Positions 30,307 to 39,517 of a DNA stretch of 64,000 bases are shown here, piece by piece. The translations under genes and the position numbers were made by a program. Position 1 is the stretch's first letter. Every line of letters begins with the position of its first letter. The DNA is from an uncultured Sunxiuqinia sp. (GTDB lineage Bacteria; Bacteroidota; Bacteroidia; Bacteroidales; Prolixibacteraceae), in assembly GCF_947495665.1 (NCBI RefSeq), contig NZ_CANLZV010000001.1, forward strand, positions 1-64,000, given 5' to 3'. The notes beneath the pieces were generated by a model that did no database searches, was not told where the DNA came from, and saw only the letters and a program-made list of their open reading frames with translations.

Positions 30307-32262
30307 ATGAATCCAATGAATAAAACATTTAACTACATCGAGAAGACAGTTGAAAAACTGCCTGTTCAAGTCGTTGACAATCCACAAGAAGGCGCGCTTC
30401 TTATCGCCAAAAGGATTGCGGAGCTGATTAAAAAGAAACAAGCAAGCGGCCAAAAGGCTGTGCTTGGTTTGGCAACAGGTTCATCTCCGGTTCAGATTTA
30501 CCGGGAGTTGGTTCGTATGCACAAGGAAGAAGGTTTAAGCTTCAAAAACGTAATCACGTTTAACCTGGATGAATACTACCCGATGGATCCGAAAAGTGAA
30601 AAAAGCTACGTTCGCTTTATGCACCAGCACTTGTTCAACCATATCGATATTCAACCGGAAAATATTCACATCCCTGATGGAAGCTTACCGCTTGATCGGG
30701 TTGGCGAATTTTGTGCGGACTACGAAGCTCAGATTGTGGCTTCAGGCGGTATCGATATTCAGTTGCTCGGAATTGGTCGTTCAGGCCACATTGGATTCAA
30801 TGAACCGGGCTCAACAGCCAATTCAACCACACGCCTGGTAAAACTGGACAGTGTGACCATTGCTGATGCGGTTAAGGATTTTGGAAACGAGGAGGCGGTG
30901 CCACACCGTGCCATTACAATGGGAGTGGATACGATTTTGGGCGCTCGCGAAATTATTTTAGCCGGTTGGGGAAAACTGAAGTCCCCGGTTTTGAAAGCGA
31001 TGATTGAAGGGCCTGTTACAAGCAGTTTGCCTGCTTCGTTTTTACAATTGCACTCTAAGGTTTCGGTTTACCTCGATGAGCCGGCTACGGCTGAGTTTAC
31101 CCGTACAAAAGCACCGTGGTTGGTTGGTGTTTGCGAGTGGACGCCCAAAATGGTAAAACGAGCTGTAATCTGGCTAAGTCAGAAAACTGAAAAGCCGATT
31201 TTGAAACTTACCGATGATGATTATAAAAAAGAAGGACTTCGTGACCTGTTGGCTCAGTATGGCGGAGCTTATGATTTGAATATTAAAATATTTGGAGAAA
31301 TACGGGATACCATTACCGGCTGGCCGGGAGGTAAACCGGGAGCAACAGAAAAAACGCGTCCGGAACGCCCGGAGCCTGCCGTGAAACGATCCCTGATTTT
31401 TAGTCCACACCCGGATGATGATGTGATTTCAATGGGTGGAACGTTGCTGCGCTTGGTTGATCAGAAACACGATGTGCATGTGGCCTATCAAACTTCCGGA
31501 AACATTGCGGTATTTGATGATGATGCCATTCGCTTTTCACAATTCACCATTGATTTGCTGGAAAGCCAGGAAGTGAAAAATGAAAAGCTTATCGAGGCAC
31601 ACAAAGGCCTGATTGAATTTTTGAAAAACAAAAAGCCGGGTGAAATCGATATTCCTTTTGTGAAGCAGGTGAAAGGCTTGATTCGAAAAGGAGAAGCCGA
31701 AGCTGGCTGCCGGTTCTGCGGGGTAAAAGATACCAATGTTCACTTCCTGAACTTGCCGTTTTATGAAACCGGACAAGTGGAGAAAGGCCCCATTGGCGAA
31801 GCCGATGTGAAGTTGGTAGTTGACCTGCTGCGTGAGGTGAAACCGCACCAGATATTTGCTGCCGGAGACCTTCAGGATCCGCATGGCACGCACGAAGTGT
31901 GTTTGCAAATTATCTTTAAAGCCATTCGTCAAATTCGTGCTGAAGGTGATGCCTGGCTGGATGATTGCTACCTGTGGTTGTATCGTGGTGCCTGGCAGGA
32001 ATGGGCTGTGGAAGATATTGAAATGGCCGTTCCCATCAGTCCTTCAGAATTGCTAAGAAAGCGAAAAGCAATTTTTAAACACCAATCGCAAAAAGACTTT
32101 CCGGTGTTTCCGGGCGAGGATAAGCGCGAATTCTGGCAACGGGCTGAAGATCGGAACCAAGAAACGGCTAAAGTTTATGACCAGTTGGGCTTAGCGGAGT
32201 ACGAGGCTATCGAAGCTTTTGTGCGTTATCCGTTTGATGATGAGGAGTCTTTTCTGAAGTAA
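30307..32262 (+). CDS. nagB: Glucosamine-6-phosphate deaminase fused to PIG-L deacetylase-like domain
   Basis: The 651-residue protein has an N-terminal NagB domain (about 20-290) with LGLATGSSPVQIYREL, FNLDEYYP including D88, and GHIGFNEPGS at about 160-169. The C-terminal PIG-L/LmbE domain (about 360-640) has the zinc motif H368-P-D-D. The long fusion is typical of Bacteroidota NagB as I recall it. It would convert glucosamine 6-phosphate to fructose 6-phosphate and ammonia; the second domain may deacetylate an N-acetylated sugar. At the position of the E. coli catalytic D141 this protein has S159 (G-R-S-G-H). It is probably controlled by the upstream LacI protein. A 33-codon frame at 30222-30323 overlaps the start. 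Confidence 0.85.
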   Translation: MNPMNKTFNYIEKTVEKLPVQVVDNPQEGALLIAKRIAELIKKKQASGQKAVLGLATGSSPVQIYRELVRMHKEEGLSFKNVITFNLDEYYPMDPKSEKSYVRFMHQHLFNHIDIQPENIHIPDGSLPLDRVGEFCADYEAQIVASGGIDIQLLGIGRSGHIGFNEPGSTANSTTRLVKLDSVTIADAVKDFGNEEAVPHRAITMGVDTILGAREIILAGWGKLKSPVLKAMIEGPVTSSLPASFLQLHSKVSVYLDEPATAEFTRTKAPWLVGVCEWTPKMVKRAVIWLSQKTEKPILKLTDDDYKKEGLRDLLAQYGGAYDLNIKIFGEIRDTITGWPGGKPGATEKTRPERPEPAVKRSLIFSPHPDDDVISMGGTLLRLVDQKHDVHVAYQTSGNIAVFDDDAIRFSQFTIDLLESQEVKNEKLIEAHKGLIEFLKNKKPGEIDIPFVKQVKGLIRKGEAEAGCRFCGVKDTNVHFLNLPFYETGQVEKGPIGEADVKLVVDLLREVKPHQIFAAGDLQDPHGTHEVCLQIIFKAIRQIRAEGDAWLDDCYLWLYRGAWQEWAVEDIEMAVPISPSELLRKRKAIFKHQSQKDFPVFPGEDKREFWQRAEDRNQETAKVYDQLGLAEYEAIEAFVRYPFDDEESFLK

Positions 32263-32432: not shown

Positions 32433-34079
32433 ATGACCATGCTGAATCGTTTTCAAACACTCCTGTATAGTTTACTCCTTTTATTCGTTTTTCCGGCTTT
32501 TTCACAGCAAGTTCCGCCTTCTCCGTCCAACCAAACACGCCTGGTTGTGGTGGTTAATGTGGAGCAGATGCGTACCGATTATATCAGTCGGTATTGGAGT
32601 CATTTTCAGCAGGGAGGATTTCGCCGGTTGATGTTGGATGGAGCGGTTTGTTCAAATGCTGCCATGGAATTGCACATTCAGAAAAACACAACCGGAGTGC
32701 CTACACTTTTTACCGGAGTTTATCCCGATCGGCATGGAATTGTAAATGATTCCTGGTATGACCGTTTGCGCCAAAAGGAAATCGATGCCTTGGAAGATGA
32801 TTATTATATCACCGTTGGAAGTGACTCCCGCGAAGGGCAGTTGTCGGCAGCAAACTTGCTTAGCCCAACAATTGGCGATGTGCTGAAAGTCAGCACCAAC
32901 AAAGCGTCCAAGGTTTTTTCGGTAGCTCTTAATTCGAACAGCGCGGTGTTTTCGGCCGGGCATGCGGCAGATGGTGCTTATTGGATGGATGAACTGACCG
33001 GAAACATGATTAGCAGTTCGTACTATGTTGATCAGTTTCCGGATTGGGTGCGTCAGTTCAACGATAAAAAATTTGCTGATTTCTACATTGAGCGTGACTG
33101 GAGCCTGCTTTTGCCTTCAAGCAGCTATACCGAAAGTTTGGCGGACGATTACTTGTTGGAGCCGGGCTACTATGGAAAATGGAATACGTTTCCGTACAAT
33201 ATGAGTAAGCTGAAAAAACAGGCAGGGAGTTATAAGATTCTTAAAACAACCCCTTTTGGAAATATGATGGTTAAGGATTTTGCGCTTGCACTGATTGAAT
33301 CCGAGCAACTGGGGATGGATAGCACGCCCGATCTGCTGGCTGTCAATTTTTCCTCCATGGATTACGAACAAGGTGCTTTTAGCCCCAGTTCGGTGGAAAT
33401 GCAGGATTTGTATCTTCGACTTGATCGCAACATTGAACACCTGTTGAATTTTCTGGATCAAAAAGTTGGTCGGGATAAATATGTGATGGTGCTTACTTCG
33501 GCCTGTGCCTCCAGCTATCCGGTAAACTATCTGAAAGAAGAATTTAATATGCCTGTTGGTTTTGTAGCACCGGAAAGCATGGTTGCCTTGTTGAAGTCCT
33601 TTCTCAACATTAGCTATGGGCAAGGCGATTGGGTGGAATTTGTGAGTGATCAGCAAATCTACCTGAACCGTGATTTGATAGAGAAAAGGGATTTGAATTT
33701 GGCCGATATGCAGGCAAAAGCGGCTTCCTTCATTAATCAATTTGAAGGGGTAAAATTGGCTTTGCCCGCGGTGGGTTTTGAGCAGGGCGATTATGTGAAA
33801 AGCCAATTGGCCCGCATTTCCAGCTCATTTAACTTCAAGCGCTCGGGCGATGTGCTTTTTGCTCTTGAAGAAGGCTGGCAGCCGGAGTTTAAATACAAAC
33901 GCACAATCTACAACGACAACAGTCGTATTCCAATGATCTGGTTTGGACAGGGAATTAAGCGTGGCTCAACCCTGCGGCGAGTTGATGCGGTGGACTTGGT
34001 GCCCACGCTTCTGCATTTGTTGGGCTACGAAATTCCATCGCACTGCATCGGCCAGATTGTGAATGAGGTGGTTGATTAG
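32433..34079 (+). CDS. Secreted alkaline-phosphatase-superfamily protein lacking catalytic residues
   Basis: The 548-residue protein has a signal peptide (ending AFSQ at 25) and aligns with PafA-type phosphatases (type I phosphodiesterase fold): LVVVVNVEQMRTDYISRY, TLFTGVYPDRHGIVNDSWYD, NFSSMDYEQGAF, DLYLRLDRNIEHLLNFLDQK. By motif alignment from memory the PafA residues D38, T79, H309, D352, H353, K162 and R164 correspond to E44, N85, G314, A357, C358, N167 and N169, and no His replaces H486. Only D310 and N105 remain. The protein is full length with no frameshift, so it looks like a maintained pseudoenzyme. Its function is unknown. It follows nagB by 170 bases. Confidence 0.78.
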   Translation: MTMLNRFQTLLYSLLLLFVFPAFSQQVPPSPSNQTRLVVVVNVEQMRTDYISRYWSHFQQGGFRRLMLDGAVCSNAAMELHIQKNTTGVPTLFTGVYPDRHGIVNDSWYDRLRQKEIDALEDDYYITVGSDSREGQLSAANLLSPTIGDVLKVSTNKASKVFSVALNSNSAVFSAGHAADGAYWMDELTGNMISSSYYVDQFPDWVRQFNDKKFADFYIERDWSLLLPSSSYTESLADDYLLEPGYYGKWNTFPYNMSKLKKQAGSYKILKTTPFGNMMVKDFALALIESEQLGMDSTPDLLAVNFSSMDYEQGAFSPSSVEMQDLYLRLDRNIEHLLNFLDQKVGRDKYVMVLTSACASSYPVNYLKEEFNMPVGFVAPESMVALLKSFLNISYGQGDWVEFVSDQQIYLNRDLIEKRDLNLADMQAKAASFINQFEGVKLALPAVGFEQGDYVKSQLARISSSFNFKRSGDVLFALEEGWQPEFKYKRTIYNDNSRIPMIWFGQGIKRGSTLRRVDAVDLVPTLLHLLGYEIPSHCIGQIVNEVVD

Positions 34080-34099: not shown

Positions 34100-34711
34100 T
34101 TAGTAGCGCGTTGAATAATAAAAACCAAGGGTTAGCGTAATCGTTTGGCGTTTCAGGTCGTACCAAATGTAATGGTTCGGGTCGAAGTTTTCTCCCAGTT
34201 CGAAATCCCATAGCCATTCCTTGTTATGAAACCCCTGAAACCCTGCTTTAACAACCCAAAAATTGTTTCGTTGAATGCGATGGCGGTAGCCAATTCCAGC
34301 TTCGTAAAGAAGTCCTTTGTCCTGGTTTTTGTGATTAAACCGAAGCCCATACCCAACTTCAGCATAAACCAGCGGTGTATTGGCACCTTTACTTAAGTAG
34401 CCTTGCCCATTCACCAACAGGGGGAAGGTTAACATGCCCGGAGATTCATAATTGAGAACACCCGCCGTAAGCCCGGAAGAGAAATGGAAGCCCGAAAACC
34501 AATTGGTCGATACTTTAAGTCCGTAGGAAGAGGGCGAGAAATTAGCGACATCATACCTATGGGTTGAACGGAGGCTTGTACCATGCCCATAAAAGCCTTC
34601 AACACCATAAAAAAATCCTTGGTTGCGAATAAGTCTGCTTTGTGCCTTTGCTGTTGTTGTAGAAACAGCCATTAGCGTAATAACTGTCAGCGTTTGTAAA
34701 AGGGTTTTCAT
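34100..34711 (-). CDS. Outer membrane beta-barrel-like exported protein
   Basis: From ATG 34711 the protein is 203 residues with a signal peptide (MKTLLQTLTVITLMAVSTTTAKAQ). The rest alternates polar and aromatic residues in short strands (FFYGVEGFYGHGTSL, LVYAEVGYGLRFNH, WVVKAGFQGFHN, ITLTLGFYYSTRY) with a terminal aromatic residue, as expected of a small eight-stranded barrel. No family is recognised with confidence. A longer in-frame start at 34900 is rejected because it removes the signal peptide from the N-terminus. It is convergent with the pseudo-phosphatase gene. Confidence 0.65.
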   Translation of the reverse strand: MKTLLQTLTVITLMAVSTTTAKAQSRLIRNQGFFYGVEGFYGHGTSLRSTHRYDVANFSPSSYGLKVSTNWFSGFHFSSGLTAGVLNYESPGMLTFPLLVNGQGYLSKGANTPLVYAEVGYGLRFNHKNQDKGLLYEAGIGYRHRIQRNNFWVVKAGFQGFHNKEWLWDFELGENFDPNHYIWYDLKRQTITLTLGFYYSTRY

Positions 34712-34838
34712 TGCAGTGAAACTGAAAAAAGTTAATGAAATGGAAAGATATGTAAAATTATTTAAGACTAAGAGAAATTTACAGAAGTGTGATTGTTTTT
34801 GTAAGTTTGTGACTTTCGATTTTTGATAAGGAATAGAA

Positions 34839-36038
34839 ATGGCAAAGAAATTTAAACCGCTTAATTCAGTTTTAATTAAACCTTCAGGACCCGATTGCAA
34901 TTTGAATTGTTCGTATTGCTTTTACCTGGAAAAGTCTGAATTATTTGCTCAGAATAAAACGCACCGCATGAGTCCGCAGGTGCAGGAAGAAACTATCCGG
35001 CAGGTGATGCAGCAGTCGGGTGAGAATGTTTCACTGGCATGGCAGGGAGGAGAACCCACCTTGATGGGACTGGAATTTTATGAACGGGCAATTGAACTGG
35101 AGAAAAAATACGGACACGGCCAGATGGTGGGTAATGGTTTGCAAACCAATGGGCTTTTACTGAACCGGGATTGGGCTAAATTTCTGAAAAAATACGATTG
35201 GCTGGTTGGATTATCTTTGGATGGGCCTCAGTTCATTCATGATCATTACCGGTTTGATGTGGCAGGAAAAGGTACTCATCAACGGGTGGAAGATCGTGCT
35301 AAAATGTTGCTTGACGAAGGCGTTTCGGTTAATGCGATGTGCTGTGTAACCAGTCATTCGGTGAAGTATCCGGAAGAATTGTACAACTATTATAAGGAGA
35401 TGGGACTGACCTTTATGCAGTTTATTCCTGTAGTTGAAACCGATAAAAATGACCCGACCAAGGCGGCTGACTTTTCCGTATCGGCTGAGGCTTATGGGCA
35501 TTTTCTGAATAAATTGTTTGACCTGTGGCTGGCTGACTTTAAAGATGGTCAACCCACCACCTCGATCCGTCACTTTGAGTCGGTTTTTTACACCTATGTT
35601 GGTCTGGAGGCTCCGGAATGTACGATGATGAAAGAATGCGGCCCCTATGTGGTTGTTGAACACAACGGCAACGTATATAGCTGTGACTTTTTTGTAGAGC
35701 CCAAATGGAAACTGGGAAATGTGATGCATGACCGGATTATAAACATGCTGAACTCGAAAAAGCAAACGGTTTTTGGAATGGCCAAGACTCAGCTTCCGCG
35801 GGAGTGCAAGCAGTGCAGCTGGCTTACCAAATGCTATGGTGGTTGTACTAAGGATCGGATAAAAGATCCGCGCGATCAACGCAAACCACGCTTTTGTACG
35901 GCCTATAAGTTGTTTTTTAATCATGCTGATCCAACCTTGTCGGACATGGCTGTGCAGTGGCAGCAAAATCAGCATGATATGCAACAAAGCCAGCAAAGTG
36001 GGGGTGTTTACAATGCTTTTGATGATTTTATGAAGTAA
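34839..36038 (+). CDS. Anaerobic sulfatase-maturating enzyme (radical SAM/SPASM)
   Basis: The 399-residue protein has the radical SAM motif C20-NLN-C24-SY-C27 and the C-terminal SPASM cysteines (ECTMMKECGPY, GNVYSCDFFVEPKWKLGNV, RECKQCSWLTKCYGGC). The overall fit, including the hallmark GPDCNLNCSYCFYLEK start, is to anSME, which oxidises an active-site Cys or Ser of sulfatases to formylglycine using S-adenosylmethionine without oxygen. The only sulfatase-fold gene in the window (38117-39517) has a Ser at the modification site but an altered motif. A single anSME usually serves many sulfatases, so its real clients are probably elsewhere in the genome. Confidence 0.88.
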   Translation: MAKKFKPLNSVLIKPSGPDCNLNCSYCFYLEKSELFAQNKTHRMSPQVQEETIRQVMQQSGENVSLAWQGGEPTLMGLEFYERAIELEKKYGHGQMVGNGLQTNGLLLNRDWAKFLKKYDWLVGLSLDGPQFIHDHYRFDVAGKGTHQRVEDRAKMLLDEGVSVNAMCCVTSHSVKYPEELYNYYKEMGLTFMQFIPVVETDKNDPTKAADFSVSAEAYGHFLNKLFDLWLADFKDGQPTTSIRHFESVFYTYVGLEAPECTMMKECGPYVVVEHNGNVYSCDFFVEPKWKLGNVMHDRIINMLNSKKQTVFGMAKTQLPRECKQCSWLTKCYGGCTKDRIKDPRDQRKPRFCTAYKLFFNHADPTLSDMAVQWQQNQHDMQQSQQSGGVYNAFDDFMK

Positions 36039-38116: not shown

Positions 38117-39517
38117 TCATCGAACGGATGTTGAAGGAATCAATTGACTTGAATTGGAGTTCTCGGACCAAGGTATTTTTTCATTTTCCTGAATATACTG
38201 ATGGATTTCCCGATGTAAATCCTGGTAGTATTTGGAGCTCTCTGAAAGCGGAATCATTTCATGCGGATCAGTAGTTAAATTATACAACCTGAATTTTTCA
38301 GAAGGATGATTTTGCATGAGTTTATAAGCTCCACGTCGAGCGGCATAAATTGCTTTACCGTTGAAATCGTCTCCTTTTCGATAAAGCCAGAACAACGTCC
38401 GGTTTCCAGGCAAAGGTTCGTCGTTGAAAATGCAGCTTGTTAAGTCTTTTCCATCAAAGTTTTGGTCTGACGGAGTTTCGCAAAGCTGGCTCAAGCTCGG
38501 GAAAAGGTCCATGGTTAGGGCCACCTGATGACTTAGACTTCCTTTTTTAATTTGGCTTTTCCAAAACAGGCAGGTGGGCACCCGAATGCCGCCTTCGTAC
38601 AAGTCTTGGTGTCCTCCGCGTAAAGTCCTGTTTGAGGCGCCATGCGCTGTGCTTCCTCCAGTATGCGCGCTAAATACGATGATCGTATTTTTTAGCTGAT
38701 TTGTTTCGTTTAATTTCGTGATCACTTTTCCGATACCGTCATCAATCTGTTCGATTAGGGCAATGTAGTTTGCTCTTTCTGAACTTAATCCATGCTGTCT
38801 TTTCCGGACTTGATTTAAATAGTCTTCGACGGGCTGAAGCAAGGTGCCGGGAGCGTTAAACGACAGGTATAACAGGAAGGGATTGTCCGCATTCTGCTGG
38901 CTTTCCACAAAATTTACAGACCAATTGGTAAATAAATCCGTGGCATGTCCTTTCGTTACAATTTCCTTTTTATTGAAGCGCAAGTAGTTTTTGCCCTTGC
39001 TGTGGTGGGTAAAATAATCATCAATCTCATCGCCCATATAGCCCATGAATAAATCGAATCCCCGTTCGTTTGGAAGATTTGGCGACTCAAATCCTAAGTC
39101 CCATTTTCCAATCAGGGCAGTTGTGTAGCCGGCTTTGCGAAAATGCATGGGCAAAGTCGATTCCGTTTGAAAGTATCCCCAGCTGTTTTCTTGGTTGTCG
39201 CGAATCATGCCATGAACTCCAACAGAGGCCGGGTAGCGCCCGGTGAGTAAGGAAGCCTGGGTTGGCGAGCTGGCCGTTGAATTTGCATAAAATTCATTGA
39301 AAATAAGTCCATTCATGAAGAGGTCATCAATGTTGGGGGTTCGAATGTCTTTGGCTCCGGTGATTGAAAGGTCTCCATAGCCGAGGTTATCTGCCATGAT
39401 GATCAGTACATTGGGCTTTTTAGTATTTCTGCCTGTGGCAGGGCTAGCCTGCAAGGTTGTAAACAATAAAGCGATGGTTGTTCCCCAAAAGAACAATTGT
39501 TTGATTTGTTGTTTCAT
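38117..39517 (-). CDS. Sulfatase-fold protein with degenerate active site
   Basis: The 466-residue secreted protein has the S1 sulfatase fold: PNVLIIMADNLGYGDLSITG, SLLTGRYP, RGFDLFMGYMG, LYEGGIRVP. Compared with the usual motifs, the metal-binding A-D-D is A-D43-N44, the C/S-x-P-S-R maturation site is S83-S-P-T-Q87, GKWHLG is GKWDLG (a GKWGLG subfamily also exists), A-P-H is A-P-G, the metal motif S-D-N-G is A-H-T-G, and the Lys in LRGGK is His. The gene is intact, with a signal peptide at 1-28. I infer a binding or regulatory role, or an altered chemistry. It precedes the fucosidase gene on the same strand. Confidence 0.8.
   Translation of the reverse strand: MKQQIKQLFFWGTTIALLFTTLQASPATGRNTKKPNVLIIMADNLGYGDLSITGAKDIRTPNIDDLFMNGLIFNEFYANSTASSPTQASLLTGRYPASVGVHGMIRDNQENSWGYFQTESTLPMHFRKAGYTTALIGKWDLGFESPNLPNERGFDLFMGYMGDEIDDYFTHHSKGKNYLRFNKKEIVTKGHATDLFTNWSVNFVESQQNADNPFLLYLSFNAPGTLLQPVEDYLNQVRKRQHGLSSERANYIALIEQIDDGIGKVITKLNETNQLKNTIIVFSAHTGGSTAHGASNRTLRGGHQDLYEGGIRVPTCLFWKSQIKKGSLSHQVALTMDLFPSLSQLCETPSDQNFDGKDLTSCIFNDEPLPGNRTLFWLYRKGDDFNGKAIYAARRGAYKLMQNHPSEKFRLYNLTTDPHEMIPLSESSKYYQDLHREIHQYIQENEKIPWSENSNSSQLIPSTSVR

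Follow-up and report, generated by a model that had tools for sequence, protein, structure and literature searches.

A gene in the 64,000-nt stretch of DNA from an uncultured Sunxiuqinia sp. that was analyzed here (the window) probably encodes a PafA-family protein that is exported to the periplasm and lacks catalytic function, and the loss of the active site, judged from the aligned catalytic positions, is lineage-wide in the order. Selection maintains the gene, and its product combines homology to an enzyme with the loss of residues that the chemistry of that enzyme needs, the combination that defines a pseudoenzyme. The order referred to throughout is the GTDB order, which we take to be Bacteroidales; NCBI places Sunxiuqinia (Prolixibacteraceae) in Marinilabiliales.

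The open reading frame starts with ATG and encodes a protein of 548 amino acids without an internal stop, and is thus intact. A phmmer search aligned residues 34-547 with PafA (5tj3) at 303.8 bits (E 2e-89); the E-value rules out a chance match, and the full-length homology, together with the uninterrupted frame, bears out the earlier note, which had described an intact gene with the length and motif order of PafA. The next matches were 5too, an active-site mutant entry, followed by 3q3q and PhoK. The Pfam model Phosphodiest matched the window protein with 87 bits, and the NCBIfam PafA equivalog model NF042991 matched it with 482.3 bits, under the curated cut-off of 650. By eye, no membrane segment was seen beyond the signal-like N-terminus. 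The nearest named relatives were from Sunxiuqinia species (80, 77, and 75 percent identity), followed by Gaoshiqia (68 percent). Searches of its own genome gave a single match with the window protein as the query (E<=1e-20) and a single match with the PafA model (E<=1e-30), and so no intact PafA was found there; for the Phosphodiest model, 32 matches were listed in the same genome. An AlphaFold2 model built from the window protein and 21 relatives was poor (pLDDT 54.5). The features of the gene and its product are listed in Table 1.

Table 1. Features of the PafA-like gene in the window and of its product (residues of the product in window numbering).
Feature	Position	Strand	Basis
Probable PafA-type pseudophosphatase gene, 548 aa	32433..34079	+	ORF reading, PafA alignment, family search
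Signal-peptide-like N-terminal segment, residues 1-25, without lipobox Cys	32433..32507	+	by eye
E44 at PafA D38; E in 79 and D in 22 of 101 family loci	32562..32564	+	alignment and family loci
N85 at PafA T79 (nucleophile); family-set variability at 100th percentile	32685..32687	+	alignment
D106 at PafA N100	32748..32750	+	alignment
N167 at PafA K162; N in 100 of 101 family loci	32931..32933	+	alignment and family loci
N169 at PafA R164; family-set variability at 99th percentile	32937..32939	+	alignment
D310 at PafA D305, sole residue kept of ten; D in 99 of 101 family loci	33360..33362	+	alignment
G314 at PafA H309	33372..33374	+	alignment
A357-C358 at PafA D352-H353	33501..33506	+	alignment
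Equivalent of PafA 360-479, residues ~365-486; variability lower in degenerate sets than in intact PafA	33525..33890	+	column variability
K489 at PafA H486 (MAFFT); gap region in phmmer alignment, no His	33897..33899	+	alignment

The phmmer and MAFFT alignments showed that nine of the ten catalytic residues of PafA are replaced in the window protein and that D305 alone is kept, as D310. This residue is the only one of the seven nucleophile and metal ligand positions (T79, D38, D305, H309, D352, H353, and H486) to be retained, and the phosphate contacts N100, K162, and R164 are all changed (D106, N167, and N169). The metal- and phosphate-binding roles of the ten residues are assumed here as they were in the earlier note. 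The mapping proposed there for E44, N85, G314, A357, C358, N167, and N169, and the lack of a His at position 486, agreed with the alignment. Its statement that D310 and N105 alone match held for D310 but not for N105, which pairs with PafA G99, while N100 pairs with D106 in an alignment that is gap-free around a common W-Y-D. Phosphoester hydrolysis by the two-metal mechanism of PafA would be impossible for such a protein; E44, D310, and C358 could in principle hold one metal ion. A nucleophile shifted by two residues to T87 was also considered and is conceivable on paper; it is opposed by G88 and the LFTG after it, which fix the register, and it would not restore the other ligands.

Within the family, a match was found in 135 of 140 genomes, and no listed match contained an internal stop, contig-end fragments aside. 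None of the orthologues read from 101 of the 135 matching genomes, the window's own included, was intact (0/101); between one and three of the ten residues remain in each. Seven of the eight extra family loci (L059-L066) were intact; the eighth is a partial frame of G083, a genome in which one extra intact-type copy is split over two frames. The order sample gave a match in 86 of 149 genomes and none in 63. All 84 matching genomes outside the family were read, and a degenerate copy was found in 80 of them. The number of residues kept in these copies ranges from zero to six out of the ten, or from zero to five when only the seven nucleophile and metal ligand positions are counted, indicating that the erosion is graded. 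The four genomes without a degenerate copy were G204 and G202 (10/10 residues), G145 (9/10, N100 being changed), and G186, in which the four readable catalytic sites of a fragment are all kept. Outside the order, all 50 loci read were intact; they came from 47 of the 129 matching genomes of a phylum-wide sample and comprised the 30 top scorers of the PafA model and 20 loci picked from lower ranks, a sampling weighted to top scorers that could miss degenerate copies. In two order-level intermediates, L082 and L086, the nucleophile and metal ligands are kept except for D305 and H309, which leaves five of the seven.

The sequence sets for the trees and for column variability were thinned by identity and did not include L066 (short) or L078 (partial). 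In the first tree, from which the ten catalytic columns had been taken out, 32 intact sequences formed one clade and the degenerate sequences of the family formed another (both 100/100), with two intact sequences nested among the order-level degenerate ones; the simplest count was three changes, and the bootstrap of this tree had not settled. In a later tree, which included three near-intact order members, near-intact copies nested among degenerate ones and the simplest count was two changes; the well-supported branches on their own force one change, which is compatible with a single transition. Lost active sites were likely never regained. If the loss is irreversible, one count gives seven losses and the later tree gives 12 (7 to 14 over 200 bootstrap trees), a soft number because several branches are weak.

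Pairwise dN/dS (NG86; pairs with 78-98.5 percent identity and dS under 2) had a median of 0.053 (range 0.022-0.097) for degenerate genes and 0.039 for intact genes (19 pairs); the 246 degenerate pairs are an inflated count, since some genomes are present under two locus ids. In the family set (48 rows), E/D38, N162, and D305 lay at the 24th, 7th, and 11th percentiles of variability, respectively, and the other seven catalytic columns lay at the 69th to 100th. The nine measurable catalytic columns of the other order set (63 rows) lay at the 40th to 96th percentiles, with column 305 at the 93rd; columns 352 and 486 fall in gapped regions in many of these rows, where the letters depend on the alignment. 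The intact set was selected for all ten residues and has zero entropy there by construction. That seven catalytic positions are more variable than the median column is evidence against a redesigned catalytic centre. The earlier note had suggested checking whether the replaced residues are conserved across orthologues; this held at E/D38 and N162 (the kept D305 is conserved too) but not at the other seven of the ten.

The segment equivalent to PafA 360-479 gained 14 to 23 rank points of conservation in both degenerate sets relative to both intact sets, and the remainder of the protein lost 4 to 7. This contrast gave p-values of 3e-8 to 1e-23 in Mann-Whitney tests that ignore relatedness and linkage, and like-with-like controls differed too (p 0.010 and 0.032; shifts of -3.9 versus 1.7 and -4.3 versus 0.9, with arbitrary sign). 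In absolute terms, the variability of the segment in the family set is close to the average for the protein that contains it (mean percentiles 38, 56, 58, and 53), and so the contrast, whose polarity is not set, could also reflect relaxation in intact PafA. Positions conserved in at least 85 percent of the 111 degenerate rows include L386, L387, W400, F433, and G439. The retention of the gene in 135 of 140 family genomes, the 0/101 intact orthologues, the low dN/dS, and the shifted constraint support the suggestion of the earlier note that the gene is selected for as a pseudoenzyme, for example in a binding or regulatory role, insofar as sequence comparisons can tell. Such a protein would act by binding a partner, either protein or lipid, perhaps through the PafA 360-479 segment.

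In the window, the gene is preceded by a nagB/PIG-L-like gene (30307-32262), in which a nagB-like deaminase runs into a part resembling a deacetylase (NF002557; the second half matches BshB1 weakly), and is followed by a small convergent gene (34100-34717, minus strand) whose product begins, by eye, like a signal peptide and which has no match in NCBIfam. Beyond the convergent gene lie an anaerobic sulfatase maturase gene (34839-36038) and then yjbQ; a sulfatase-like gene occupies 38117-39517 on the opposite strand. Among four Sunxiuqinia flanks (the window, L108, L109, and L125), the nagB-like gene was present in two, and the convergent gene and yjbQ were present in all four, which marks the latter two as genus-level neighbours. 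The widest-spread neighbour cluster other than the gene itself was found at 16 of 84 loci. Neither lnb directly upstream nor secA downstream is present at the window gene. The window genome has both an Lnb homologue, on a different contig from the window (G000, C11:51652-52080), and an Lnt homologue (C8:24538-25785); in the order sample these unrelated lipoprotein N-acyltransferase families are mostly mutually exclusive, and both were present in 15 of 149 genomes.

Neighbour flanks were classified at 103 of 104 loci, L252 being left out. In another branch of the order, lnb is directly upstream of the PafA-like gene in 23 of the 60 genomes with both genes, across 17 families, and all 23 lnb-adjacent copies are degenerate. 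Three genomes (G141, G271, and G225) each hold one intact and one degenerate copy, and the lnb-adjacent one is degenerate. Of 15 flanks that were read and have lnb upstream as a gene of its own, 14 have secA as the next gene. Genome G180 carries a 923-aa frame (L256:6974-9742, minus strand) composed of Lnb_N, the Lnb membrane domain, and a degenerate Phosphodiest domain, with no secA in the flank as far as it was read; its occurrence in a single genome means that an assembly effect is possible. NCBIfam named example neighbours as Lnb (397 bits, under the cut-off of 550), SecA, GldD, GldE, and Lnt. In G266, an Lnt gene lies two ORFs ahead of the degenerate PafA-like gene (L197:4878-8620); similar coordinates were obtained for G149, which belongs to the same genus. 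Lnb, a lipoprotein N-acyltransferase of Bacteroides (DUF4105, NF051878), is unrelated to PafA and is a candidate partner as the neighbour or fusion partner of orthologues. The Lnb gene of B. theta is presumably BT_4364, near secA. DUF4105 is equated with Lnb in PMC12994826, and Armbruster 2024 is cited as the Lnb paper there and in PMC13103446.

The lnb-adjacent orthologues, usually with secA next, and the single Lnb fusion raised the tentative suggestion that the partner process is the maturation of exported lipoproteins. In the order sample, PafA-like genes (intact and degenerate counted together) co-occurred with Lnb (60 genomes with both, 26 with PafA-like only, 11 with Lnb only, and 52 with neither; odds ratio 10.9) and were negatively associated with Lnt (36 with both, 50 with PafA-like only, 52 with Lnt only, and 11 with neither), the Fisher p-values for these counts ignoring relatedness and linkage. 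In the family, the gene was present in 99 of 103 genomes with Lnb and in 36 of 37 without detected Lnb; these counts weaken the lipoprotein-maturation suggestion somewhat. A dependence of the gene on Lnb within the family is contradicted by the same 36 of 37 genomes. In its most specific form, which we consider unlikely, the former phosphatase would be a non-catalytic partner at the Sec exit that presents nascent diacyl-lipoproteins or the donor phospholipid to Lnb (or Lnt) by means of a surface in the PafA 360-479 segment, in a role older than the loss of catalysis, so that many lineages would have shed the active site independently.

The retention of the gene in Lnb-less family genomes, and the 25 order genomes with a PafA-like gene and Lnt but without Lnb, are also consistent with an envelope sensor or carrier that binds phosphate or a lipid headgroup and is unrelated to Lnb. 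The PafA-type fold binds phosphoesters in its relatives; however, the basic phosphate contacts K162 and R164 are both replaced, and the proximity to lnb and the fusion favour a different role. We regard such a sensor or carrier as possible without being probable.

An enzyme with a different chemistry, or with a single-metal site using E44, N167, D310, or C358, would account for the strong conservation of E/D38, N162, and D305 in the family, where part of the old pocket is still constrained, and for the few order copies (2/80) in which five of the seven nucleophile and metal ligand residues survive. The only His or Cys residues conserved at >=80 percent in the family are H101 and H177, both of which are also present in PafA; a conserved set of zinc ligands is therefore not apparent. 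A Cys occupies position 353 in 34 of 101 family loci, and column 305 is among the more variable columns of the other order rows; we consider a different chemistry to be quite unlikely.

A role in type 9 secretion or gliding is suggested by the surroundings of the gene in several families, where it lies tail to tail with a gldD-gldE block and behind an M14 carboxypeptidase gene. The block adjoins the gene in Gaoshiqia (L110) and at L183 and, by sequence cluster, at L259; the M14 cluster accompanies both intact (L181) and degenerate loci (L183, for instance). These shared surroundings at several loci suggest one ancestral locus. The gldD block, however, is on the opposite strand, SprA is present in 140 of 149 order genomes versus 86 of 149 for PafA-like genes, and six of the nine genomes without SprA carry a PafA-like gene, which makes such a role very unlikely. 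SprA is too widespread in the order to serve as a test of dependence on the type 9 system. In several order families, the M14 carboxypeptidase gene precedes the PafA-like gene at a short distance (L183:5120-6931, L200, and L181), and by eye the L200 protein has an apparent T9SS sorting tail at its end. A decaying relic without function is scarcely credible, since the mostly variable former active site that it would explain is accompanied by low dN/dS, by family frames free of internal stops (contig-end fragments aside), and by a constraint distributed differently from that of intact PafA.

The reading of the window protein as a non-catalytic member of the PafA family can be set against known systems. 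It resembles PafA (5tj3; NF042991) in its full-length homology, motif order, and, by eye, signal-like N-terminus, and differs from it in nine of ten catalytic residues, in its score (482 bits versus 650), and in the distribution of constraint. PhoK and SPAP-type alkaline phosphatases (5xwi, 3q3q) are active metal enzymes and are more distant homologues than PafA (E 2e-27). The likeness to YejM/PbgA/LapC is the loss of metal-coordinating residues and is an analogy only, as YejM is membrane-anchored and belongs, we assume, to another branch of the superfamily. PMC12444477 describes YejM/PbgA/LapC as a relative of LtaS/EptA that acts in envelope lipid control and whose metal-coordinating residues are not conserved, and mentions a reported Mg-dependent phosphatase activity. 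PMC8115612 presents PafA itself as a phosphatase that is predicted to be periplasmic and is expressed constitutively, with an occurrence of 78.7 percent across the phylum for its gene. A 2022 PafA study dropped sequences changed at key residues and retained 423 of an isolate set of n = 468 (PMC8812569). A literature search by title and abstract, with most subscription journals outside its scope, found no paper describing a degenerate PafA clade and nothing on BT_4363/BT_4364 or on a Bacteroidota "pseudophosphatase".

Phosphorus-cycle surveys that do not check residues would presumably score these genes as phosphatases. The gene is also a candidate for a part in how these bacteria mature their lipoproteins. 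As near-intact and eroded forms coexist within what appears to be a widespread pseudoenzyme clade, the step from enzyme to non-enzyme would be directly testable.
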